Positions 2,375 through 21,414 of a stretch of 21,414 nt of DNA are shown here, piece after piece. Both the position numbers and the translations under genes were made by a program. Source of the DNA: a virus; the IMG/VR virus record IMGVR_UViG_3300027784_000066, positions 1-21,414 of that record. One strand, given 5' to 3'. Every line of letters starts with the position of its first letter. Position 1 is the stretch's first letter. The notes beneath the pieces are model-generated. The model was not told the DNA's origin. It ran no database searches and worked only from the letters and a program-made list of their open reading frames with translations.

Positions 2375-3124
2375 TTACCTCCACCTCTCTCGAAATTCCA
2401 ACTCTATTTCGGTGTTTGCAGGAACAACGTCAAAACTAAATTCACCTGGTGGAATTTGAAAATAAGGAGAAGTTTTTTGAATTGAGACATCACTTCTTGC
2501 GTCTTCTCCATTTACAGTGACCATTCTACCTCTGGTATCCAGTTTTACGACATCACCTGGGTTTAACTCTTTGTCTAAAATAAATTCCCTGTCACCTAAT
2601 TTTAGTTCAAAATCTTCTGTTTCTTCCTGAATAACAGCCTTTAATTCAAAATGCACAGGAATACTACCTTCGTTTTCTCCTGTTGTTTCGTTTATTTCTT
2701 TCTTATCAACTGCTTCAGTGTAAGGTTCAGGTATAAAAAATTCAACTTCACATTGGGAATGGGTTATTATGTCCTCTGCACTAATTTCCCCTCTTAGGTA
2801 ACCCATCCACCTTCTGTTCAAATCATCATCAAAAATTATCTCTTTGGAAATGGGTTTATTTCGGTCGTTTTTAACTGTCTTTAACCACTCTGCTACTTCG
2901 TGTGCTCTATTACGTAACTGTTCTGGAGTGTCTGCATGTATTTGAAACGACACAGGAATAATTTTACCACGGTCGTCCTGTCTCACTGGCACAGTTCCTT
3001 GATACCCAGGTATTTCCTCTTCTGTATCTTCTGTAGGAGTTCCCAGGTTCCTGCCTACAACACTAACTATTTCAATATCAAAATCGTCTGAATGGGTGCC
3101 ATTATATTTGAAACCATAACTCAT
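2375..3124 (-). CDS. Distal tail protein (Dit, SPP1 gp19.1-like)
   Basis: This 249-residue protein sits between tape measure and tail-tip protein, the invariant place of Dit. The N-terminus (SYGFKYNGTHSDDFDIEIV) and the middle segment on replacing part of the target position, ending in a GYLRGEI-type strand, resemble the Sipho_tail family. Dit forms the hexameric ring joining the tail tube to the adhesion device. The C-terminal ~100 residues (from ~150) look like a galectin-like beta domain, ending in an aromatic, acidic tail. The ATG lies 3 bases after the TAA of the tape-measure gene, with only a weak ribosome site, so translation may be coupled. Confidence 0.85.
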   Translation of the reverse strand: MSYGFKYNGTHSDDFDIEIVSVVGRNLGTPTEDTEEEIPGYQGTVPVRQDDRGKIIPVSFQIHADTPEQLRNRAHEVAEWLKTVKNDRNKPISKEIIFDDDLNRRWMGYLRGEISAEDIITHSQCEVEFFIPEPYTEAVDKKEINETTGENEGSIPVHFELKAVIQEETEDFELKLGDREFILDKELNPGDVVKLDTRGRMVTVNGEDARSDVSIQKTSPYFQIPPGEFSFDVVPANTEIELEFRERWR

Positions 3125-3127
3125 AAT

Positions 3128-5281
3128 TTACACCGTCCCCAATAGTGCTTTAATATTCTCATTCTCCCAAATAGCTACGTCTAATTCCTCTCTAACATCT
3201 TCCCTTCTAAGCAATTGAACTACAAGCTTAGCAAGCTTTTCTGTGTTTATGCCACTGGGAGCCTCTTTAACGTGAATATTAACTGTCTTAACTTCTTCAC
3301 GTTTCTGTTCAGGAGTTATGACTTTCTCCCCGTCTCGCAAAAGAGCTAAATCCTCTCCTCCAGGACGAGAAGATTTAAAGGTGCCACCAAAGTGAAGTTT
3401 AGGTATCCTGGGTAGAGAAGCTCTTGGAATATTGGGAATACTATATTCGTTCCCCCCAACTAAAGGCACCCAACTTGGAATTTCAAAGGAAGGCATTCTG
3501 TTTATAGCATCTGCTATAGCATTCACCATGCGTTCAGCAGCTCCTATTACAGAGTTTATCAGACCTATAATAGTATTGACAATGCCCCGAAGTATGCCAA
3601 CTAAACCTTCCCACATTCTTTCCCAATCTCCGGTAAACAATCCAGCAAATGTGTCAAACACGCCCCGTATTATCTCTAAACATCCACCTAATACAGCAGA
3701 AAGAACATCTAAAGCGGTTTGGAAAACTCCTTTAACCATGTCCCACATAAATTTAGCTAAAAAGATAATCCTGTCTCCATACTTTTCCCAATACCACTCA
3801 ATAAAAGTCCATAGCAATTCGATAATGCCAGATATGAGAAAATACGCAATATTAAATAGACCTTTAATAGTATCCCACATGCCTTGAACAATCCCAATTA
3901 TATTTTCTCCGTGCTCTTCCCAAAAGTCTCCAATCCATTCCATAACTGACTTAATTAATTCCCCAACAACTTCAAGAACTGTCCCAACAATCTCTTGAAT
4001 AGTTTCCCAAACATTCCTGGCAGTCTCCATTATTTTTTCGCCATGTTCTTCCCAAAAATCTTCAATCCACTCTACTGCTTCTTCTATTAGCTCATTGATA
4101 TAATCCAAAGCTGTGCCAATAATTTCTTGAATACGTTCCCATACTTCCTGAGCTTTAGCGGAAATCCGTTCCCAAACTTCAATTATAAATTCTCTAAATT
4201 CTTCGTTTTCCTGCCACAAGTGTCTAATTATTGCTATCATTCCTGCAATTGCACCAACTATTAATATGATAGGTGCTAACAGAGCCAATTTAGCCACTGT
4301 TAATCCTTTAATTGCTGTAATTGCTCCAGTGGCTACCCTGGTCACTCCTGCTTTAGCTACCGATATACCTTTAATAGCAGGTCCTAAAGCGATTAAAGCA
4401 GGTGTTAAAGAAGAAGCTGCTTCTGCCAAATCCCCATACTGATACATTAAGTCCTCTGCTCTTGATTGAAGTCTCTGCATTAAAGTATAACTCTCAGCGT
4501 GAGTTTCTGCCTGTTCTTCAATTACTTCAGAAGAGTCTTTCACTTCTTCCTGGTATTTCTCTAACTGTTCTTCTGTTAAACCTAAAGAATCTAACATCTT
4601 ATTTATGTCACCGTCAGATTCATTTACAGCTTTTCTAAATTCGGACCTGGCAGTTCTGGCAGACATGCCCAATTCGTGTTCTAAAGCACCAGTTACGGCA
4701 GCTGCATCATCAATATCCATACCTAAATCTCTGATTTGAGGTCCAGTTCTTTCAATAAAACGTAAAAATCCTGAAACGTCTCCTGAAGTTTCTCTGGTTA
4801 CATAACCAAAAGCAGATAAGGCTTGCTTCTCTTCTCCAGCAGCTACCCCTACAGCTCGAAGAGCACTACCACTCTTTGCAAGCCTATCAGCATTTTCTCC
4901 TGTTGCGTCACCCACCGTGTCCCAAAATTCTGCATATTCCTTTAAAGCTTCAGCAGAGCGAATGCCCTGCTGTCTTCCTGTTTCCATAAGGGTTAAAACG
5001 TCTGAGATTGGGAATGTTGCATCAGACATAGATAGTGCCATGCTTCGAACTTCTTCTTCCTTCATTTCCATGGCAGAAGCTATGTTTCTTGTTTGTTCTG
5101 TAAGAGGAGCCTGCTTTCTGGCCATAGTTTCAATTCCTGCACCTGCAGTGGCAGTAGCAGCTCCCACCGCAAGCCAATTCTTCTCTAAAGTCTTAGCTGC
5201 AGAACTCCCCTTACTTTTAACCCTATCGACCACTTCAGTGGCCTTGTCTTGAGCTTTAATGACAATTTCCATAACAGCCAC
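3128..5281 (-). CDS. Tail tape measure protein with 44-residue repeats
   Basis: 717 residues. The protein fixes tail length and is threaded inside the tube; at roughly 0.15 nm per residue this predicts a tail near 105-110 nm. Residues 1-300 are helical and Ala-rich with the usual TMP core (NIASAMEMKEEEV, AAAVTGALEHELG). Residues ~331-353 (LALLAPIILIVGAIAGMIAII) form a hydrophobic segment typical of TMPs. Residues 380-511 are three exact-length 44-residue repeats of the pattern W..I....L..I.ELI...EWI.DFWEEHGE.I, with a degenerate fourth copy after them. The C-terminus has the usual Pro-rich linker and GGEDLALLRDGEKVITPEQ. GTG at 5281 has AGGTGA just upstream; ATG three codons in is an alternative. 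The preceding chaperone frame stops only 5 bases before. Confidence 0.93.
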   Translation of the reverse strand: MAVMEIVIKAQDKATEVVDRVKSKGSSAAKTLEKNWLAVGAATATAGAGIETMARKQAPLTEQTRNIASAMEMKEEEVRSMALSMSDATFPISDVLTLMETGRQQGIRSAEALKEYAEFWDTVGDATGENADRLAKSGSALRAVGVAAGEEKQALSAFGYVTRETSGDVSGFLRFIERTGPQIRDLGMDIDDAAAVTGALEHELGMSARTARSEFRKAVNESDGDINKMLDSLGLTEEQLEKYQEEVKDSSEVIEEQAETHAESYTLMQRLQSRAEDLMYQYGDLAEAASSLTPALIALGPAIKGISVAKAGVTRVATGAITAIKGLTVAKLALLAPIILIVGAIAGMIAIIRHLWQENEEFREFIIEVWERISAKAQEVWERIQEIIGTALDYINELIEEAVEWIEDFWEEHGEKIMETARNVWETIQEIVGTVLEVVGELIKSVMEWIGDFWEEHGENIIGIVQGMWDTIKGLFNIAYFLISGIIELLWTFIEWYWEKYGDRIIFLAKFMWDMVKGVFQTALDVLSAVLGGCLEIIRGVFDTFAGLFTGDWERMWEGLVGILRGIVNTIIGLINSVIGAAERMVNAIADAINRMPSFEIPSWVPLVGGNEYSIPNIPRASLPRIPKLHFGGTFKSSRPGGEDLALLRDGEKVITPEQKREEVKTVNIHVKEAPSGINTEKLAKLVVQLLRREDVREELDVAIWENENIKALLGTV
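3749..4144 (-). repeat. Three 44-codon (132 bp) tandem repeats within the tape measure gene
   Basis: Residues 380-423, 424-467 and 468-511 align without gaps. Copies 1 and 2 are closest: both contain QEI(I/V)GT and end in DFWEEHGE. Copy 3 is more hydrophobic and a fourth decayed copy follows. Forty-four is four times eleven, matching the 11-residue aromatic periodicity known for tape measures. Gain or loss of a copy would shift predicted tail length by about 6-7 nm. Confidence 0.85.
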
Positions 5282-5286
5282 TTAAA

Positions 5287-5601
5287 TCACCTCAACATTC
5301 CCTTTACTTCGTCCTTCTCTTGCGTTCCCTTACTCTTTGAATTGCTTTGTTTATTACTTCTTCTATGCATTTCAGCATAACCAAACAGGAGAAACATTTG
5401 TTGATATAAAGTTAAATCGTTCTGGTTATCTGCTAAACGGTATCCCAATTTATCCAGGATTATCATTTCCTGGCCAACATCGCTTTCAGCGAAATCTCTA
5501 ACTCTTTTTTCCACGTTTACGAAAGGATTTCTCCTGCTTACCCTCTTTGTCTTTCTTTTCATTACTGATAGTATCCTTAGGGTTCTCCCCTGAAACATCA
5601 A
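5287..5601 (-). CDS. Tail assembly chaperone, T extension reached by ribosomal frameshift
   Basis: This frame follows the shorter chaperone and is probably read only as its C-terminal extension: the first ATG here (5601) has no convincing ribosome site, and its first ~30 codons are the overlapped frame of the upstream gene, very Arg/Lys-rich. The useful part starts about 5505 and adds 72 residues (RVRDFAESDVGQEMIILDKL onward, with LTLYQQMFLLFGYAEMH), giving a fusion of about 225 residues. By analogy with lambda gpG/gpGT, the T domain would bind the tube protein while G binds the tape measure. The shift needed is +1 (or -2), not -1; the probable site is the six-A run at 5505-5510. Confidence 0.8.
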   Translation of the reverse strand: MMFQGRTLRILSVMKRKTKRVSRRNPFVNVEKRVRDFAESDVGQEMIILDKLGYRLADNQNDLTLYQQMFLLFGYAEMHRRSNKQSNSKSKGTQEKDEVKGMLR

Positions 5602-9081: not shown

Positions 9082-10092
9082 TTAATCTAATTCTTCTTTA
9101 TCAAGATAAGCAGTGACAGCAGCTTTTTCGTCTTCGTAATGAGCGTCACACTCAATAGTCAAATAAAACTCGGTTCTCCGTTCTTCAGCGTTGCGACAAG
9201 GTTCAATCGTAACTTCATGGAATACGCCCCAAACCATGTTGTCAGGGTGCTGAAGAGTAGCAACCCCACCCAAACCCTTTTCGCCTCCGCTTGCGTCAGG
9301 AGCTACTGAGCGTTCAAGCATGGGAGCGTAAACCACTGGAATGCCTTTGTAGTAAAGCCTTTCTCCTGCGGTTTGAGCACTATCTCCTAAAGCAGTTCCT
9401 CTTTGCTTAAGAATGTTACGATAACCGTCCTCAATTTCGTAAGGAACGTAAAAACGCCACTCTGAACGGTTAACCAGATATTGCTTAGGCAAAGCGTCTA
9501 ACAATGCACCCAAAATAGATTCAGCATCATCAGGGTCAAAATCGTTGTCGTCCCCTTTACCGAATATGTGCTTATCAGCAAGTTTCAACCAACCATCGGT
9601 CATTTCCAGAATGCCTGCTTCTGTTAGGTTTTCAGTGTTAGATAGCAAAGCCCACTCTTCGAAATCCCTTCCAGCTGCTTCTCCGAAAAGGTTAACTAAG
9701 TGATTTTCGAAATCACCACGTTCAATGTTTCGGCGAAGTGCTCTGTCTGTCAGAGCTACCTTACCACGAAGCTCCTGAGCAATTAGCTTATTCGTCCAGG
9801 TGTCAGGCTTAACGAAGCTCTCAGAACCTTTTTCAGTTTCAGAGCTTCCATCGTCCTTAATACCTTTAGTCAAAACACGGTCGACAAAACCAATGCGGTC
9901 GATTTCCGTTTTTCGACTGGTCATTTCCTGGAACCTTGCTTCAGGAAGAATATTGGTTCTGTGTTGCATGGCTTCAACAAAGCGGTCAAACTTCTGCGTA
10001 ACCAATATAGAATCTCCCAAAGCATTTACATCTACCACACTCTTAAACGCTTGGTCTAACTTTTGTAAAAGCTGTTCATTAGTGTAAGCCAT
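9082..10092 (-). CDS. Major capsid protein (HK97 fold)
   Basis: 336 residues, right after the protease-scaffold gene, the standard place for the capsid subunit. There is an N-terminal helix (NEQLLQKLDQAFKSVVDVNALG). The body has features of HK97-fold capsids: RTNILPEARFQEMTSRKTEIDRIGF, a spine-helix-like region RNIERGDFENHLVNLFGEAAGRDFEEWALL, LPKQYLVNRSEWRFYVPYEI and YKGIPVVYAPML near the A-domain strands. The N-terminus has no long delta-domain of HK97 gp5 type, in agreement with a separate scaffold encoded by the upstream gene. ATG overlaps the preceding TAA by one base (TAATG), which implies coupled, high-level translation. Confidence 0.88.
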   Translation of the reverse strand: MAYTNEQLLQKLDQAFKSVVDVNALGDSILVTQKFDRFVEAMQHRTNILPEARFQEMTSRKTEIDRIGFVDRVLTKGIKDDGSSETEKGSESFVKPDTWTNKLIAQELRGKVALTDRALRRNIERGDFENHLVNLFGEAAGRDFEEWALLSNTENLTEAGILEMTDGWLKLADKHIFGKGDDNDFDPDDAESILGALLDALPKQYLVNRSEWRFYVPYEIEDGYRNILKQRGTALGDSAQTAGERLYYKGIPVVYAPMLERSVAPDASGGEKGLGGVATLQHPDNMVWGVFHEVTIEPCRNAEERRTEFYLTIECDAHYEDEKAAVTAYLDKEELD

Positions 10093-10478
10093 TATTTATC
10101 CTCTCCTCTCTTTTTTCTACCGAAAGCATCTCGGCCTTTAATGCCCCTTTCGGGTTCTCCTTCTTTATCTCCGTCTTGTCCCGTCAGAGATTTAGAAGAA
10201 GTAAACTTCTTACTAATACGGTTCTCCAGTTCTTCAAGTTTCTGGACAACTTCAGACTTAAAAGATTCAAGTTCTTCGTTGCCCTGGTCTTGAGTGTCAG
10301 TATCGGTGTTGGTGCTGTCGGTGTTTCCTTCGTCACCCTCTTCACCTTCACCAGTCTGGCTATCTTGAACATTACCACTCTCTATTTGAGATTTGAGAGA
10401 AGTGATTTCTTCCTGAATGGGTTCGACAGCCTCTTTTACTGCACCCTCAACCATTTCCTTTAACTTCTCCATTTCCAT
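10092..10478 (-). CDS. Possible separate scaffolding protein from an internal in-frame start
   Basis: ATG 10478, in frame with the protease, has AAGGAGG (10489-10495) about 10 bases upstream. It would yield a 128-residue acidic coiled-coil protein identical to the protease C-terminus: helix EKLKEMVEGAVKEAVEPIQE, a Glu/Asp/Thr-rich spacer, a second coil ELESFKSEVVQKLEELENRI and a Lys/Arg tail of the sort used to contact capsid subunits. This arrangement is known from lambda C/Nu3. A second ATG six bases on is an alternative. The ribosome site is seen; its use is inferred. Confidence 0.5.
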   Translation of the reverse strand: MEMEKLKEMVEGAVKEAVEPIQEEITSLKSQIESGNVQDSQTGEGEEGDEGNTDSTNTDTDTQDQGNEELESFKSEVVQKLEELENRISKKFTSSKSLTGQDGDKEGEPERGIKGRDAFGRKKRGEDK

Positions 10479-11600
10479 TTCCTCTTCCCCTCCTTGTTCA
10501 GAGTTTTTATTACTTGACTTCTGTGCACTCCCTTCACTTCCTTCTCCTTCATTATCGCCTCCATAAATAGATTTACCTTTTTCCTCTCGTTCTTTATCTG
10601 CTTCGTCCACAAGATATTTCAAGTGGGTAAAAGCTTCCTTAAGTTCTCGGTATACTTCCTCAGAAAACCGCATGCCTTCTTTTTTACCGAAAAGCCCTTT
10701 GAAGAAACCTTTAACACCTTTCTCGTTCTCACCATTTTGTTCGTCCTGCTCGGTGTTCGGTTCTGGTTCCTTCGACTTCAATGCGAAAAATTTCGCCTTC
10801 GGGACAGCAGGTTCGTCAACAATACTAACTGCTGCTGCTACCCAATCTGGCCCCAGGTCCCTTAAAAGCGTTTTCTTCAAAGCCACGTCAGGCGTTTGCT
10901 CTTTCACTGCTTGCTCAAAGGTCTGGCGTTTTATACCCATGACAGAATAACCAATTAAATTCCCGTCCTCAATGTCCTGCCAGGTTTCTTCATTAAGAAC
11001 TTTAGAAGCCATAATCCAGCTACCTTCAGGAATAACCATTTCTCCACCAGTGAAAACGTTATTAACTCGAAGCTCTTTAGGAGTAATATAGCTTTCCACT
11101 GGAACACCCACGTTGTTTAGGGTGTGCTTAATGTCCACGTTTCTGTAAGACAGCATCCATTCATGAGCTGCTTCCTCAATCTTTTCCTTAGTAACTGTCT
11201 CTCCGTCATGGTCTTCCTCCCCAGGGACCAAAATAGGTGCGTAAGCAATTTGTCTGGTGTTGTCCTTCATCACGATAGGTCCTGTGAGTTCGCACTCCAC
11301 CCTTAACCCTTTAGTAACAGGGTCAATTCCTTCAGATTGAAGTTTCTTGTAAGCGTAAATATTATCCACTTCTCTTACCCTTCCCAAAAAGACTTCGTTA
11401 TTCTCTTTGCGATAAGGAACCTCATATAGTTTATCGTTTGAAGTGTTCTTAACGATAACAGCATCAGAGAACGTATGAACTAAATACATGTCCCTTATCT
11501 CTTCCCCGTTTCTTGGGTCGTGGTTATCTAACTCCTGCCACACTTTACGTTCTACTTTATCCCTTACTACTTCAAAACTGTCGTCAACTTTACGCCCCAC
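10092..11600 (-). CDS. Prohead protease (XkdF / Peptidase_S78_2-like) fused to scaffold-like C-terminus
   Basis: 502 residues from GTG 11600, which has AAGGAGGTG five bases upstream; an in-frame GTG at 11618 overlaps that ribosome site and is unlikely. Residues ~95-275 match XkdF-type serine proteases: LTGPIVMKDNTRQIAYAPIL, KIEEAAHEWML, then DIKH (H159), SWIMASKVLNEETW and LIGYSVMG (S219), ending SIVDEPAVPKAKFFALK. H159 and S219 are the likely catalytic pair. Residues ~280-370 are a charged linker. Residues 375-502 are Glu-rich, helical and coiled (EMEKLKEMVEGAVKEAVEPI; LESFKSEVVQKLEELENRI), with a basic end, like a capsid scaffold. A strong internal ribosome site could make the scaffold alone. 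Confidence 0.82.
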   Translation of the reverse strand: MGRKVDDSFEVVRDKVERKVWQELDNHDPRNGEEIRDMYLVHTFSDAVIVKNTSNDKLYEVPYRKENNEVFLGRVREVDNIYAYKKLQSEGIDPVTKGLRVECELTGPIVMKDNTRQIAYAPILVPGEEDHDGETVTKEKIEEAAHEWMLSYRNVDIKHTLNNVGVPVESYITPKELRVNNVFTGGEMVIPEGSWIMASKVLNEETWQDIEDGNLIGYSVMGIKRQTFEQAVKEQTPDVALKKTLLRDLGPDWVAAAVSIVDEPAVPKAKFFALKSKEPEPNTEQDEQNGENEKGVKGFFKGLFGKKEGMRFSEEVYRELKEAFTHLKYLVDEADKEREEKGKSIYGGDNEGEGSEGSAQKSSNKNSEQGGEEEMEMEKLKEMVEGAVKEAVEPIQEEITSLKSQIESGNVQDSQTGEGEEGDEGNTDSTNTDTDTQDQGNEELESFKSEVVQKLEELENRISKKFTSSKSLTGQDGDKEGEPERGIKGRDAFGRKKRGEDK

Positions 11601-15624: not shown

Positions 15625-16941
15625 TCACCTACTTCCTACGGATTTCGCTTTAACCCTAACTTTTTCTCTACCTTGAAGCATGAGTTCTGTCATGCCCCAA
15701 ACCAAAGCGTCTAACCTGTCTGGACTAACCATTCCAGAATTAGGAACCCACGTGCAAAGCTGGTCCTCTAACTGTGGAAGGTTGCCTACGTGGTGAACTT
15801 TTCCTTGTTCATATAAAGCAGCTACGGGTTCTGCCCTGGTCTGCTTGCCTCTACTGGCGTAAACGTTCTTGTAAGAAACGTTAGGGTCTAAAGAACGGAT
15901 TGTGCTTTCAATCATTTCGCCACCATTATTAGCTTCACCAATTATGCGGTCTGCACCAAACTCATAATAAGCGTTAATAGCTCTTTCTGCCCAACCATGT
16001 GGCGAAGCCCTTAAGCTCAAATCTTCAATAACATAACCGTGATTGTCTTCTCCCAGGCCAACCACTACAATGCCTGTTTCGTTAGCAGTGTCTTTACTTG
16101 AACCTGCTGGGTCAATGGCCACCACAATCCTGTAAAATGTTCCTGGCTTCTCCACTCGATTAGCGTCTATAATTTCTCTGTTCCAAAGAGCGTCAGGGTC
16201 GTCCTCAATAACTTCAGCGTAAAGTTCCTGTCGCCCCAACCTGGTGCCTTCATATCGTGAAATCACTTCATCATAAAAAGCTTGAGCAAGATTAGTTCTG
16301 TTTTCGTAAGTGCTTCCGCTTACTGTAAAAGTGTGTTCTGAGTTTAACAAATCTTTCACTATTTTAATCGGCCTGGGTGTTGTAGTGATTATGGCTTTTG
16401 GGTCGTTTCCTAACCTCAAGCAGAACATTATCATGTCCCACGCTGAAAGGTATCTCCAGGCAGCTAATTCATCACACCAAACTAAATCAAACTGCGGTCC
16501 ACGTAAGCGGTCTGGTTTATCCGCACTAAAGAGGGTTGCTATTGCTCCATTCGGCCACGTAATTCTTCGTTTGGACGGTTCATACTTTGGTTCAAACCAC
16601 AGTGGACAAACGCTTAGCAAACCGCTTTCACCTTCAACCATTACGTCCCTGGTGTCGGCAGCTGTCGCCCCTACCAGGCCAATCCTTTTATAACCTAACT
16701 CTTCTATGGCGTATCTTACTGCCTCTGCTCCAGTTCTGGTTTTCCCCCAACCCCTGCCTGCCATGGCCAACCAATTTCGCCACGGTCTGGAAGTAGGCCA
16801 AAGCTGGTTCGGTCTGGCCCAAATAGACCAATCATAAAAAAGAACTAAAGTTTCTTGGTAACTTAACTCCTCAATTAGCTCCTGTCTCTTGTTTTCGCTG
16901 AGCGAAGCTATTGACTTTACTAAGGAGACGTTGTTTGACAT
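15625..16941 (-). CDS. Terminase large subunit (packaging ATPase/nuclease)
   Basis: 438 residues. The ATPase half has Walker A GRGWGKT (62-68), Walker B DLVWCDE (152-158) with the catalytic Glu, and the coupling motif TTTPRP (186-191). The RNase H-like nuclease half has VAIDPAG (D277), GEANNGG (E336) and DRLDALVWGM (D411), the three acidic metal ligands. It moves DNA into the prohead through the portal and cuts the concatemer. ATG 16941 has AGGAGAGA seven to eight bases upstream, so the 71-base overlap with the small-subunit gene is probably real. Confidence 0.96.
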   Translation of the reverse strand: MSNNVSLVKSIASLSENKRQELIEELSYQETLVLFYDWSIWARPNQLWPTSRPWRNWLAMAGRGWGKTRTGAEAVRYAIEELGYKRIGLVGATAADTRDVMVEGESGLLSVCPLWFEPKYEPSKRRITWPNGAIATLFSADKPDRLRGPQFDLVWCDELAAWRYLSAWDMIMFCLRLGNDPKAIITTTPRPIKIVKDLLNSEHTFTVSGSTYENRTNLAQAFYDEVISRYEGTRLGRQELYAEVIEDDPDALWNREIIDANRVEKPGTFYRIVVAIDPAGSSKDTANETGIVVVGLGEDNHGYVIEDLSLRASPHGWAERAINAYYEFGADRIIGEANNGGEMIESTIRSLDPNVSYKNVYASRGKQTRAEPVAALYEQGKVHHVGNLPQLEDQLCTWVPNSGMVSPDRLDALVWGMTELMLQGREKVRVKAKSVGSR

Positions 16942-17386
16942 CTTTTATCTCTCCTACGTCAATAACATTCTTATCTGTGCTTTCACCGCAAGCTAACCTG
17001 CCCATCTGGTGAAGAGTTTTAGCCGCCATGGCTATTGTGTAAACTTCACTACTGTCAGCTTGCTTCATAAATTTATTTAAACGTTGAAGTCCTGTCGTGG
17101 CAATCTCAACAGCAGCTAAATCCAGGTCGGCACCAACGCCAGCAATCTGGTCCATCACCCGTTCCTTGCGTTCCTGTTCCACTTCCTGCCTGAACTGGTC
17201 CCGTTCAACCGTCCACTGCTCTTTTTTGGACTTTCGCCCCAGGTTCTCATAGCTGATACCGTGCCTTTTGGCCACTTCTCGAATACTCGGCCAAATACGC
17301 ATGCCACTGTCTGGGTCCACGTAACCTTCAATATATTCACGCTTGGCCAATTCAGTTTCTTTTTTCTTATTAGCTCTTGCTTCCAT
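16871..17386 (-). CDS. Terminase small subunit (DNA recognition)
   Basis: 171 residues and the first gene of the late operon. Residues ~32-58 (WPSIREVAKRHGISYENLGR then KKEQW) are a helix-turn-helix of the kind found in Bacillota phage small terminases, followed by a long coiled region (ERDQFRQEVEQERKERVMDQ) and an oligomerisation segment. It selects the packaging site and activates the large subunit. ATG 17386 has AAAGGAG 10 bases upstream. A promoter candidate lies just before it, so this is likely the start of late transcription. Confidence 0.88.
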   Translation of the reverse strand: MEARANKKKETELAKREYIEGYVDPDSGMRIWPSIREVAKRHGISYENLGRKSKKEQWTVERDQFRQEVEQERKERVMDQIAGVGADLDLAAVEIATTGLQRLNKFMKQADSSEVYTIAMAAKTLHQMGRLACGESTDKNVIDVGEIKDVKQRLLSKVNSFAQRKQETGAN

Positions 17387-17414
17387 GGCCTCACAACTCC
17401 TTTGCTTTAATTTA

Positions 17415-17443
17415 AGTTTAACATAAATTTATTCCCGTGTCAA
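17415..17443 (-). promoter_or_regulatory. Candidate sigma-70 promoter for the late operon
   Basis: On the minus strand TTGACA (17443-17438), 17 bases, then TAAACT (17420-17415, four of six consensus bases). Transcription would begin about 20 bases before the small-terminase ATG. Its -35 box overlaps the left end of the inverted repeat at 17442-17455. Confidence 0.5.
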
Positions 17444-17455
17444 GTTCACGAACTT
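17442..17455. promoter_or_regulatory. Operator candidate between divergent promoters
   Basis: AAGTTC-AC-GAACTT is a perfect 6-bp inverted repeat overlapping the leftward -35 box and lying 24 bases before the rightward -35 box. The half-site core TTCGTGA recurs at 17488-17494 in the spacer of the rightward promoter. The ribbon-helix-helix protein encoded next door is an obvious but unproven ligand. Confidence 0.45.
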
Positions 17456-17478
17456 AACTTCTCTTAACATTCGCATCG

Positions 17479-17508
17479 TTGACATAATTCGTGATTACGT
17501 GCTATAAT
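17479..17508 (+). promoter_or_regulatory. Sigma-70 promoter of the rightward genes
   Basis: TTGACA (17479-17484), 18-base spacer, TATAAT (17503-17508): both boxes match consensus exactly. It reads into the ribbon-helix-helix gene whose ATG is 38 bases further on, with AAAGGAGAGGAG as ribosome site. Confidence 0.85.
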
Positions 17509-17546
17509 AGAAGTAGCACACAAGACAAAGAAAGGAGAGGAGAAAC

Positions 17547-17708
17547 ATGAAAAGAGACACCCAAATCGTCATTAAGCTAACACAAGAGGAGAAAAAACAA
17601 TGGCAGAATTTTGCAGACGAATACTCTGTGAACCTTTCTCACCTGGTCCGAAAGCTTATGGCCCAACACATGGAAAACATGAAAAAATCTGTTGCTAAAG
17701 AGAGGTGA
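17547..17708 (+). CDS. Small ribbon-helix-helix (Arc/CopG-type) DNA-binding protein
   Basis: 53 residues from an ATG with AAAGGAG upstream. The layout is a single beta strand (DTQIVIKLT) followed by two helices (QEEKKQWQNFADEY and SHLVRKLMAQHMENM) separated by a short turn (SVNLS), exactly the ribbon-helix-helix pattern; such proteins bind DNA as dimers through the strand pair. It is the first gene of the rightward unit and overlaps the start region of the next. Likely a transcriptional regulator of the divergent region, or a protein binding the nearby repeat array as some CopG/ParG-type proteins do. No toxin gene is adjacent, so an antitoxin is less likely. Confidence 0.82.
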   Translation: MKRDTQIVIKLTQEEKKQWQNFADEYSVNLSHLVRKLMAQHMENMKKSVAKER

Positions 17709-17713
17709 TTGAA

Positions 17714-18571
17714 ATGGAGACCACTGCCCCCCAGCAAGGCATCACGGAAGAGCAAGCCATTTTAGCTCTGCATAGCTGGTTAACTCAATGCCTTTGCGAA
17801 AATCCAGAACACGACACAGAAGACGCTAAAATGCAAAAATACGACAACAAACTTTATCTCCGTCCAGCTATTAACAGAGAGCTTAAATCAGACCTTCGTT
17901 GGTTGCTTGATAACGCTTCTTACTGTCAAAGCACCAAAGAGTTCGTTAGTAAAGTTCGAGACATTATAATTTTCAATCGACAAGAATACGACTACAAAAA
18001 ACACGTTCCTATTCTTTGTGAAGAATGTGCTCGTTCCCGTGGGTTCACTGTCGATACGGTTTGGCCAATTGTCTCTCAACCAGACTACAGGTGCTCCAAA
18101 TGCGGAAATTACTGGAGACCAATGGACGACAGCGTTCCAGGTGCTTACATTGAACTTGAAGACGGACAGCCAATTTGCCTGGTGTGCTTTCTTAAAGAAA
18201 GCCTGCAGGACGAAGTGCAAAAGTATCGACAAAAGCAACTTCGAGAGAACATGAAGCTTATCAATCCTAATAAACAAGAAGAAAGCACTTCTCTCAGTAG
18301 AAAAGAACAGCGTAAAATCTGGAGAGAACGCAACGAAGAAATCTTGGCCAACACACTGCAGGAAGGTTCTTGTAAAAAATGTGGTGAAGCAGAAGACAGT
18401 GAATTAGACATCATCACCACAGAAGAAAGTCCAAAAGGTAAAGTTTCTAACTGGAGAAGAGACAACAGCCCTGAAGTCTTCCAGTCTAAACTTTCCACTT
18501 GTGTTATTATTTGCCACGACTGCCTAAAAGATGAAAAAGCTGTCGAGAGAATTAGAAAGCGGAAAAATTGA
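17714..18571 (+). CDS. Cys-rich zinc-binding protein with degenerate HNH-like C-terminus
   Basis: 285 residues. ATG 17714 is chosen because AGAGGTGA ends six bases upstream; an in-frame GTG at 17705 falls inside that ribosome site. Three CxxC knuckles are visible in the middle: C102/C105, C127/C130, C155/C158, probably a treble-clef or ribbon pair. Residues 220-270 follow the layout of small HNH endonucleases: CKKCGE, SELDI, a conserved-type Ser, then TCVIICHDC. But the positions of the catalytic His pair after 'LD' read IITT, and the final CH is CL. It may therefore be a zinc-binding DNA or protein adaptor rather than a nuclease. Function unknown; expressed with the RHH protein. Confidence 0.8.
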   Translation: METTAPQQGITEEQAILALHSWLTQCLCENPEHDTEDAKMQKYDNKLYLRPAINRELKSDLRWLLDNASYCQSTKEFVSKVRDIIIFNRQEYDYKKHVPILCEECARSRGFTVDTVWPIVSQPDYRCSKCGNYWRPMDDSVPGAYIELEDGQPICLVCFLKESLQDEVQKYRQKQLRENMKLINPNKQEESTSLSRKEQRKIWRERNEEILANTLQEGSCKKCGEAEDSELDIITTEESPKGKVSNWRRDNSPEVFQSKLSTCVIICHDCLKDEKAVERIRKRKN

Positions 18572-18625
18572 GACACCACAATTTCAACAATTTTTCACCA
18601 CAATTCTCTTGCCACACGCCACAAG

Positions 18626-18654
18626 CCCTGGCCACACGCTGGTCAGGGTTTTTT
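18626..18654 (+). terminator. Rho-independent terminator 1 of the rightward unit
   Basis: An 8-bp stem CCCTGGCC/GGTCAGGG (one G-U pair), 7-base loop and TTTTTT, 55 bases after the stop codon. The loop contains ACACG from the repeat motif. Confidence 0.85.
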
Positions 18655-18674
18655 CATATTCAGATACCGAAGAA

Positions 18675-18700
18675 GCCCGTCACACGGGCATCTTTTTCTT
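18675..18700 (+). terminator. Rho-independent terminator 2 of the rightward unit
   Basis: GCCCG-TCACA-CGGGC followed by ATCTTTTTCTTT. It is a tandem backup to the first terminator. Read leftward the stem is followed only by TTCTTC, so it is at most a weak terminator in that direction. Confidence 0.75.
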
Positions 18701-18911
18701 TCGTTGCCTGTGGTTGACAAGTATCTGCCACATGTGGCAAGCGTGTGGCAACAAGCCACATCGCCACAATCCTATGCCACACACACACTCACTTCGTGAG
18801 TGTGTGTGGCAGAGTGGTCCTTTTTTGGGAACACCTCTTGCCACACGTCAGAAACACTCTGTAATTACCTGTGACCTTAAGAATGACCGAAAACTTCGGT
18901 ATGTGGCTATA

Positions 18912-18945
18912 CGTGTGGCAAGCTGGAAAGAACTGGTACCACACG
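18912..18945. repeat. 34-bp diverged repeat, copy 1
   Basis: It starts CGTGTGGC and ends CCACACG, so it is itself an imperfect hairpin. It matches 19077-19110 at 29 of 34 positions, and all five differences are transitions. The flanks are not similar. Confidence 0.85.
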
Positions 18946-18999
18946 TGTGGCAACTGTCTTGCCACACGATAGTGTGTGGCAGAACTAATTATTAAGAGG

Positions 19000-19028
19000 A
19001 TTATAATATTCGAGAATGCCCGTAACAA
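19000..19028 (-). promoter_or_regulatory. Candidate leftward promoter inside the repeat region
   Basis: On the minus strand TTGTTA (19028-19023), 17 bases, TATAAT (19005-19000). A transcript would run through the hairpins between 18990 and ~18700 with no gene to translate, so it could make a structured RNA. The -10 box is exact; the -35 matches four of six. Confidence 0.4.
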
Positions 19029-19076
19029 CGGAAATTTTTCTTCTCGGCTTTTCTGTGGTCTTGGTGGGTTGATAAC

Positions 19077-19110
19077 CGTGTGGCGAACTGGAAGGAGCTG
19101 GCACCACACG
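19077..19110. repeat. 34-bp diverged repeat, copy 2
   Basis: Second copy of the unit at 18912-18945, same orientation, 165 bases further on. Its outer arms extend to 9 bp (ACCGTGTGG/CCACACGGT, 19075-19112). It runs directly into the tandem 12-mers. Confidence 0.85.
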
Positions 19111-19136
19111 GTCTGCCACACGGTCTGCCACACGTG
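19104..19136. repeat. Tandem 12-bp repeats (CCACACGGTCTG)
   Basis: Two exact copies at 19104-19115 and 19116-19127 are followed by CCACACGTG (19128) and CCACACATATG (19137), so four CCACAC cores stand in direct orientation. The 12-, 12- and 9-base phasing resembles iterons, but no replication initiator is encoded in the window. Confidence 0.85.
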
Positions 19137-19147
19137 CCACACATATG

Positions 19148-19188
19148 AAAAGGGTGCCCACTGGTTATGTCAACACCCTTGGGCACCC
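19148..19188 (-). terminator. Terminator of the leftward early operon
   Basis: On the minus strand GGGTGCCCA (19188-19180) pairs perfectly with TGGGCACCC (19160-19152), loop 19 bases, then TTTT. It lies 36 bases past the last stop codon (19224). AGGGTG occurs twice in the arms and loop, allowing an alternative pairing with CACCCT, so an attenuator-like switch is conceivable. The U-run is short. Confidence 0.6.
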
Positions 19189-19223: not shown

Positions 19224-19427
19224 TTAGAGACGAATATCATTGTCGAACTGGTCTACAATATTAATTTCTGCGAAGCCAACTTCAAATTCTTCCCAATTTA
19301 CACTATTCATATAACTACTTGCTTTAGATTTTTGAAACGCTTCCATTTTCGTTTTCGCTATAGCTTCGCCTTGGAAATCCACTTCTCCGTTCTCTTTTTC
19401 GATAACGAACACTTTAAACAGCTTCAT
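19224..19427 (-). CDS. Short in-frame product with its own ribosome site
   Basis: 67 residues, beginning MKLFKVFVIE. AAAGGAGAGAAAAGC directly precedes its ATG, a far better ribosome site than that of the long form at 19664. It has an alternating strand, helix, strand pattern as in small alpha/beta phage proteins and an acidic end. Whether long, short or both forms are made cannot be told from the sequence. Confidence 0.55.
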   Translation of the reverse strand: MKLFKVFVIEKENGEVDFQGEAIAKTKMEAFQKSKASSYMNSVNWEEFEVGFAEINIVDQFDNDIRL

Positions 19428-19978: not shown

Positions 19979-20010
19979 GGCTTCTTCCTCCTTCAGAGGT
20001 GATAATTTTT

Positions 20011-20139
20011 TCAATAATTAGCTGTCTCATCTTCAAGTTCTACAATTAGAGTGGTGCTGTCTGTTGCGGGGTTTCCAACGTTTTTCACCCTTTTTCCTGT
20101 TAATTGACTATAAATCTTGTTATTTCTCAATATGAACAT
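20011..20139 (-). CDS. Small unknown protein (42 residues)
   Basis: ATG 20139 follows AAAGGAGAAAAAGCC, a strong ribosome site, and the gene overlaps the upstream gene by 13 bases. The peptide (MFILRNNKIYSQLTGKRVKN, then a Thr-rich strand TDSTTLIVELEDETANY) is beta-rich and acidic at the end. No family recognised. Support comes from ribosome site, overlap and tight packing. Confidence 0.6.
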   Translation of the reverse strand: MFILRNNKIYSQLTGKRVKNVGNPATDSTTLIVELEDETANY

Positions 20140-20306
20140 GGCTTTTTCTCCTTTTCTTCAATGTGCTCCCTGCGTAATCTGTCATACCTTAGCTCCCAAC
20201 CTTTTATCATGTAAATGAGTTCTTCTGCTTGCTCTGGTGGTGCGTTGTTAAAAACTTCGTGAAGCTGTCGCAAGACTTCAGCAGTTTCCTGTAGTTCAGT
20301 TTTCAT
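20127..20306 (-). CDS. Small helical unknown protein (59 residues)
   Basis: ATG 20306 has GGAGGTGG upstream and overlaps the end of the preceding gene by 11 bases. The peptide is helical and charged: TELQETAEVLRQLHEVFNNA, then PPEQAEELIYMIKGWELRYD and a basic/acidic tail ending KKPCSY. It could form a short helical hairpin. Function unknown; probably co-translated with its neighbours. Confidence 0.65.
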   Translation of the reverse strand: MKTELQETAEVLRQLHEVFNNAPPEQAEELIYMIKGWELRYDRLRREHIEEKEKKPCSY

Positions 20307-21048: not shown

Positions 21049-21306
21049 TTACCTTAGCAAATTACTAACACAACTTCTGCAGACTTTCTTTCCACAATAT
21101 TCAGAGAATGCGTCAACTTCTTCCTCCAGCATTATTTCACAGATAACACAGTGTGGTTTTTCTTCGTGTTTTCGGACCACCACTTCCCAACGGTTTAGAA
21201 TGTAAATTTCAACTGGGTCTCCGTTTTTAACGTCAAGATGTTTTCGAATTTCTTTAGGAATGACTAACCTTCCTAAACTGTCAATGTGTTTAACTACTCC
21301 TACCAA
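21049..21306 (-). CDS. AbrB/SpoVT-type regulator with C-terminal zinc-binding knuckles
   Basis: 85 residues from TTG 21306, which has AAAGGAG nine bases upstream and gives the usual short lead before the domain; an ATG at 21354 has no ribosome site. Residues 2-45 are an AbrB swapped-hairpin domain (VVKHIDSLGRLVIPKEIRKH, then NGDPVEIYIL), which binds DNA as a dimer. Residues ~54-82 carry CVIC and YCGKKVCRSC, four to five Cys that probably hold a zinc. It resembles AbrB-like transition regulators carried by phages. Likely an early regulator of phage or host genes. Confidence 0.85.
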   Translation of the reverse strand: MVGVVKHIDSLGRLVIPKEIRKHLDVKNGDPVEIYILNRWEVVVRKHEEKPHCVICEIMLEEEVDAFSEYCGKKVCRSCVSNLLR

Positions 21307-21414
21307 TTTCGTCAGCTCCTTTATCTGCTTTACCCAAGTCACAATGACAAGCAAAGCAGTGCCACTTTGAGTTCATGTTGCCTATTTCATCTTCAACTGC
21401 TTCAACGTGTTTAT
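21290..21414 (-). CDS. C-terminal end of a small Cys/His protein (partial)
   Basis: The frame enters from the right edge and stops at TAA 21290-21292, overlapping the AbrB-type start by 17 bases. The 41 visible codons include NMNSKWHCFACHCDLGKAD and end ADEIGRSS. The HCFACH segment recalls CHC2-type zinc knuckles of primases, but too little is visible to say more. An internal ATG (MNSK...) could start a 28-residue peptide but has no good ribosome site. Confidence 0.5.
   Translation of the reverse strand, partial: KHVEAVEDEIGNMNSKWHCFACHCDLGKADKGADEIGRSS

Follow-up and report, generated by a model that had tools for sequence, protein, structure and literature searches.

The window, meaning the whole 21,414-nucleotide stretch analyzed, is a viral fragment that makes up the entire IMG/VR record IMGVR_UViG_3300027784_000066. 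In it, two transcription units converge on the island under study (Table 1). The left one, read rightward, comprises a consensus promoter, an RHH and an HNH-like gene, and terminators of its own; the right one is a series of small leftward genes that ends at 19224. The original prediction had the island bordering the RHH gene, but the HNH-like gene, whose product is not a helicase, intervenes and abuts the array with its 3' end, and the RHH gene ends 0.9 kb away. The RHH and HNH-like genes (region 17415 to 18689) overlap by a few bases, are oriented opposite to the late genes, and look like a separate moron-like or toxin-antitoxin-like cassette. As IMG/VR queries, the RHH protein retrieved no relatives and the HNH protein one weak match only. 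Profile scans found no initiator helicase among the proteins of the 21-kb fragment. At 21049 to 21354, an AbrB/MazE-like domain (phrog_4681, E 6.5e-22) carries a small tail that is rich in cysteine and resembles a zinc finger.

The dense array of GCCACA/TGTGGC words that had been predicted from the sequence was confirmed. The island contains 20 exact cores (12 on the plus and 8 on the minus strand) spanning 18611 to 19141, compared to 0.18 expected in 535 b (Poisson probability of at least 20, ~4e-34), and in shuffled versions of the island the top 6-mer averaged 4.0 copies and never reached 20. The window as a whole has 28 cores versus 7.2 ± 2.6 in 100 dinucleotide shuffles, and the 8 cores outside the island, which had been described as a handful, correspond to chance. 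The extended consensus is TTGCCACACG, with T preceding GCCACA in 14/20 cores and C and G following the core in 14/20 and 13/20. Perfect palindromes, long inverted arms, and 12-bp direct tandems were all found as anticipated. A 35-bp unit occurs twice, its copies being identical at 29/35 positions by eye. Among 19 records scanned, the island was the densest two-orientation 6-mer array. INPHARED phages contained no DNA homologous to the exact island, and pattern searches of IMG/VR found none either, a degenerate 32-b pattern of the 35-bp unit having no match elsewhere. Open reading frames through the island matched no Pfam family.

The most AT-rich part of the island, a candidate DNA-unwinding element, reaches 83% AT over 30 b (from 18981) and 72% over 40 b (from 18986), with 16 cores on its left and 4 on its right. 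The stretch is weak, as 4% of all 40-mers in the window reach at least 72% AT, and almost every relative has a stronger one. The terminators expected on both sides were recovered in part: the left one sits inside the array, and the length of its loop kept the right hairpin from being called by the terminator scan. GC skew tracks the gene strand and so gave no information.

Table 1. Features of the island and neighboring genes in the window
Feature	Position	Strand	Basis
Large terminase subunit	15625..16941	-	Terminase_6N, 6C
Small terminase subunit	16871..17386	-	Weak profile match
Consensus sigma-70 promoter TTGACA-18-TATAAT of the RHH-HNH unit	17479..17508	+	12/12
53-aa RHH protein, RelB/NikA/DUF6290-like	17547..17708	+	Profile matches below cut-offs
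288-aa multi-zinc-knuckle protein, C-terminal HNH-like	17705..18571	+	phrog_3106, E 9.6e-6
Bidirectional array (putative iterons), 20 cores, consensus TTGCCACACG	18609..19143	.	Counts, repeat and word scans
Intrinsic terminator of the RHH-HNH unit, core 18631 in stem	18623..18651	+	Terminator scan
Second terminator-like hairpin	18675..18689	+	Terminator scan
Perfect palindrome TGCCACATGTGGCA, two head-on cores, 18727(+) and 18733(-)	18726..18739	.	Sequence
Long hairpin TGCCACACACACACTCAC-TTC-GTGAGTGTGTGTGGCA	18772..18814	.	Inverted-repeat search; folds on both strands
35-bp unit, copy 1, CGTGTGGC-N(~18)-ACCACACG, cores and conserved CTGGAARGARCTGG	18911..18945	.
35-bp unit, copy 2	19076..19110	.
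Candidate DNA-unwinding element, most AT-rich part of the island	18981..19025	.	AT content
Promoter-like TTGTTA-17-TATAAT inside the AT-rich stretch	19000..19028	-	10/12, consensus match only
Hairpin plus TTTT, probably terminating the leftward small genes	19152..19188	-	Inverted repeat and sequence

Arrays in structural relatives of the phage

Scans with the large terminase subunit (TerL) yielded mostly phages that were too distant, and the true structural relatives, L326 to L338, with portal, protease, capsid, and tail genes in the order of the window, were obtained by a capsid scan. The small terminase subunit of the window is 30 to 33% identical to proteins of L332/L333. The contigs of six structural relatives were searched without bias for short words that recur in the two orientations. 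Equivalent arrays with other words were found in two of them, G012 (contig of L332) and G014 (contig of L334), whose portal and capsid proteins are 51 to 55% and 51 to 54% identical to those of the window. In both, the array follows the gene of a large primase-helicase, starting no more than ~10 b from its stop codon. The protein combines a CHC2 zinc finger with a DUF927 (MCM-like) domain and has an HTH_56 "Cch helix-turn-helix" domain at its C terminus; it is similar to NCBIfam SCCmet_Cch1, below the cut-off. The G012 array (20000 to 20304) begins 9 b past the stop and has 11 GTGG[CT]AA cores in the arrangement +++---++---, the word being TTACCAC, extended CATTACCACT. G014 has 10 GGTTACA/TGTAACC cores, mostly between the helicase gene and a DnaN-like clamp gene. 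The words are TTACCACT in G012, TGTAACC in G014, and TTGCCACACG in the window. Both arrays enclose the most AT-rich DNA of their genomes, which at 82 to 88% AT ranks within the top 0.03%.

No comparable array was present in the relatives G010, G013, and G015, of which G010 and G013 are clearly fragments. In G011, also clearly a fragment, the array is a one-orientation tandem of another word, TCAAGGTGAAT, upstream of an RHH-zinc-ribbon gene and between DnaE/RuvC-like and packaging genes. The same word forms a contiguous 11-bp tandem just 5' of the RHH-zinc-ribbon gene in the close structural relative L346 (3773 to 3940). Among the TerL relatives, only L008 (IMGVR_UViG_3300042331_000074) has an array of its own, a dense two-orientation, palindromic and tandem array of GTACCCG at 1 to 1100, upstream of terS; a 24-b unit is also present there in five tandem copies, at the contig end.

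Helicase-adjacent arrays in other phages and mobile elements

Cultured phages were retrieved with the G012 helicase or the G005 VapE helicase as protein query; like the structural relatives, they were fetched by protein and provide independent evidence. Each of several carries its own word behind a DUF927 or VapE helicase gene: THSA-485A (GGTAACCGA), FP_Epona (TAGGTGAAAC, which the L346 word TCAAGGTGAAT resembles), Staphylococcus aureus JS02 (TGTTGCATCA), Paenibacillus Dante (CTGCAACA), phiRg507T2, Jekyll, AC844P2, the satellite Javan86, and S. thermophilus P738. The SaPI-like record PT1028 has AGTTCCCG behind a DUF927 helicase gene. The layout was less clean in Pseudomonas U5, the array was weak in Gardnerella AB1, and an S. 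pneumoniae phage was ambiguous; in Leuconostoc Ln-8 and Caulobacter GB2A there was no array next to the helicase gene. In the unbiased scan, the densest two-orientation 6-mer adjoined the helicase gene in 13 of 14 helicase-bearing records or pieces, with a tie in AC844P2. The exception was G003, in which another word beside the terminase-side array ranked first and the helicase-side array second.

Contigs fetched by the TGTGGCA word include G020, with the array directly behind VapE, G006, with the array directly behind a DnaG-DUF927 protein, G005, in the order VapE, array, RHH, terS, and terL, and L367, in which a PriCT_2/AAA_25 helicase gene is followed after 28 b by an array of the window's word TGCCACACG and then by HTH, terS, and terL genes. 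The recurrence of the word in these four is not independent evidence, since it was used to fetch them. Helicase families were found in 7/23 contigs with TGTGGCA arrays versus 0/22 controls (Fisher one-sided ~0.005, by hand). TGTGGCA clusters in L281, L220, L191, and L303 lay inside long collagen-like or low-complexity ORFs and were discarded by eye.

Two freshwater contigs each hold two full copies of an iteron-AT-iteron array of the word TGCCACACTT, ~6 to 7 kb apart, G002 (L342) at 31950 to 32460 and 38000 to 38500 and G003 (L355) at 2900 to 3400 and 10250 to 10750. One copy lies beside a PriCT_2/DUF5906 primase gene and the other beside the terminase genes. Identity between the two copies of one genome is 78% and 86%, and across the two genomes 67 to 70%; the within-genome likeness is expected if both copies must fit the same initiator. 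Adjoining the terminase-side TGCCACA array of L355 (~9951 to 10300) is another two-orientation word, GCACCA/TGGTGC, in 13 copies.

Function of the array

The comparison with the helicase-side arrays of the relatives and of other phages strongly supports the replication origin that was among the functions originally proposed. We infer that the island is probably the origin of this phage, of the iteron type known from SaPI and SCCmec elements (Rep/Cch). Its initiator would be a phage-encoded helicase (Rep, Cch/Cch2, DUF927-, VapE-, or PriCT-type) with its gene outside the 21-kb fragment, and it would use a C-terminal DNA-binding domain to bind the many TTGCCACACG words. Oppositely oriented words would load two head-to-head hexamers, the AT-rich stretch near 18981 to 19025 would melt to start bidirectional replication, and hairpins formed by inverted words may aid strand opening.

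In SaPI origins, the iterons come directly after rep; SCCmec Cch2 uses its C-terminal domain to bind direct repeats located immediately 3' of its own gene and requires AAGTG, a part of TACCACTTAAT / TACCACTT, for unwinding (PMC7581432). The Cch2 word TACCACTT is nearly that of G012, CATTACCACT, and bears a looser likeness to TTGCCACACG of the window; the helicases of G012 and G014 are Cch-like, as in SCCmec. The window shares with the Cch2 origin hairpin-forming inverted repeats and short words, which in the window, too, would be bound by the C-terminal domain of an initiator helicase. The SCCmec origin, with its three 5-nt iterons, directly follows cch2, whereas the window has 20 words in both orientations, terminators within the array, and no helicase gene on the fragment. 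Multiple short two-orientation words around an AT-rich center are also the layout of SaPI rep/ori, as seen in PT1028, but SaPI arrays abut rep, have a strongly AT-rich center, and use a different word (AGTTCCCG in PT1028). The VapE/PriCT-type systems G005, G020, and L367 use the TGCCACA word of the window, and in G005 and L367 the array lies between the replication genes and terS-terL. In these three, as in JS02 and Dante, the helicase gene is adjacent; the window array instead neighbors the oppositely oriented RHH-HNH unit and small genes.

Several features count against the origin reading. Iteron origins lie directly downstream of the initiator helicase gene, and here an HNH-like gene takes that place; the AT-rich stretch, though flanked by words on both sides (16/4), is weak, and the array is longer (535 b) with terminators inside. 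The lack of homologs of the exact island in the INPHARED and IMG/VR searches and of a comparable array in G010, G011, G013, and G015 points the same way. The island would work like a SaPI/Cch-type origin but is not classed as a proven member because the fragment lacks a helicase, the abutting gene is HNH-like, and the AT-rich stretch is weak. For an array detached from its helicase, G002 and G003 offer a precedent, their terminase-side copies likewise not adjoining a helicase gene. By analogy, the island could be a second, terminase-proximal copy, with the main origin near the off-contig helicase; its role might be that of an accessory origin or of a link between replication and packaging. This reading is unlikely. 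The window array does have the terminase, and no helicase, in its neighborhood; a second array is not visible in the fragment, and G012, G014, G005, and L367 have a single array each. About as unlikely is a broader form of it, in which some phages keep co-evolving helicase- and terminase-side arrays and the island is the terminase-side copy, a detached origin connecting the initiation of replication with the onset of packaging or with a second replication start.

An array bound by the neighboring RHH protein, as originally proposed, and acting as a centromere-like or operator site for omega/ParG-like partition or repression appears improbable. RHH proteins such as omega typically have arrays of short words in two orientations, and an RHH gene occurs near the array in the window, G005, and G011. 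The arrays nevertheless track helicase genes, most of them without an annotated RHH gene alongside. The scanned window proteins include no ParA-like protein, and the RHH promoter region (17387 to 17546) has no core and one 1-mismatch match (GCCTCA), so that little supports the RHH protein as the binder.

Still less probable is a pac or cos site recognized by the small terminase. The array lies 1.2 kb upstream of terS, arrays precede the terminase genes also in L367, L257/L258, and G003, and the duplicate at the terminase in G002/G003 keeps part of this idea alive. On the other hand, these two contigs have copies at both the helicase and the terminase, the arrays of G012 and G014 are ~10 kb upstream of the terminase genes, at the helicase, and an array is no regular terminase feature in the relatives.

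Arm-type integrase sites of an attP are hardly plausible: smaller TGCCACA clusters do occur beside tyrosine-integrase-like genes in L152, L234, L288, and L371, but no integrase was found among the scanned window proteins, and 20 cores are far above usual arm-site sets. The clusters of L152 (981 to 1227, also near a tRNA-like end) and of L234 and L288 (~5150 to 5370) are probably arm-type sites themselves. Just as implausible is a structured noncoding RNA: the fold is strong (z -7.9) and terminators are nearby, but the opposite strand folds about equally (z -8.5), as inverted repeats must, Rfam gave no match, the promoter scan found no consensus promoter on the plus strand of the island, no homologous sequence for covariation was found, and the relatives keep the array architecture and not a sequence.

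Returning to the iteron-type origin, the comparisons suggest a rule for locating origins in uncultured phages, namely, the densest short word in two orientations, usually behind a DUF927, VapE, or PriCT helicase gene. The paired copies of G002 and G003 pose the question of a coupling between replication and packaging. As the word varies from phage to phage and the architecture is constant, the specificity of the initiator may be readable from the genome.
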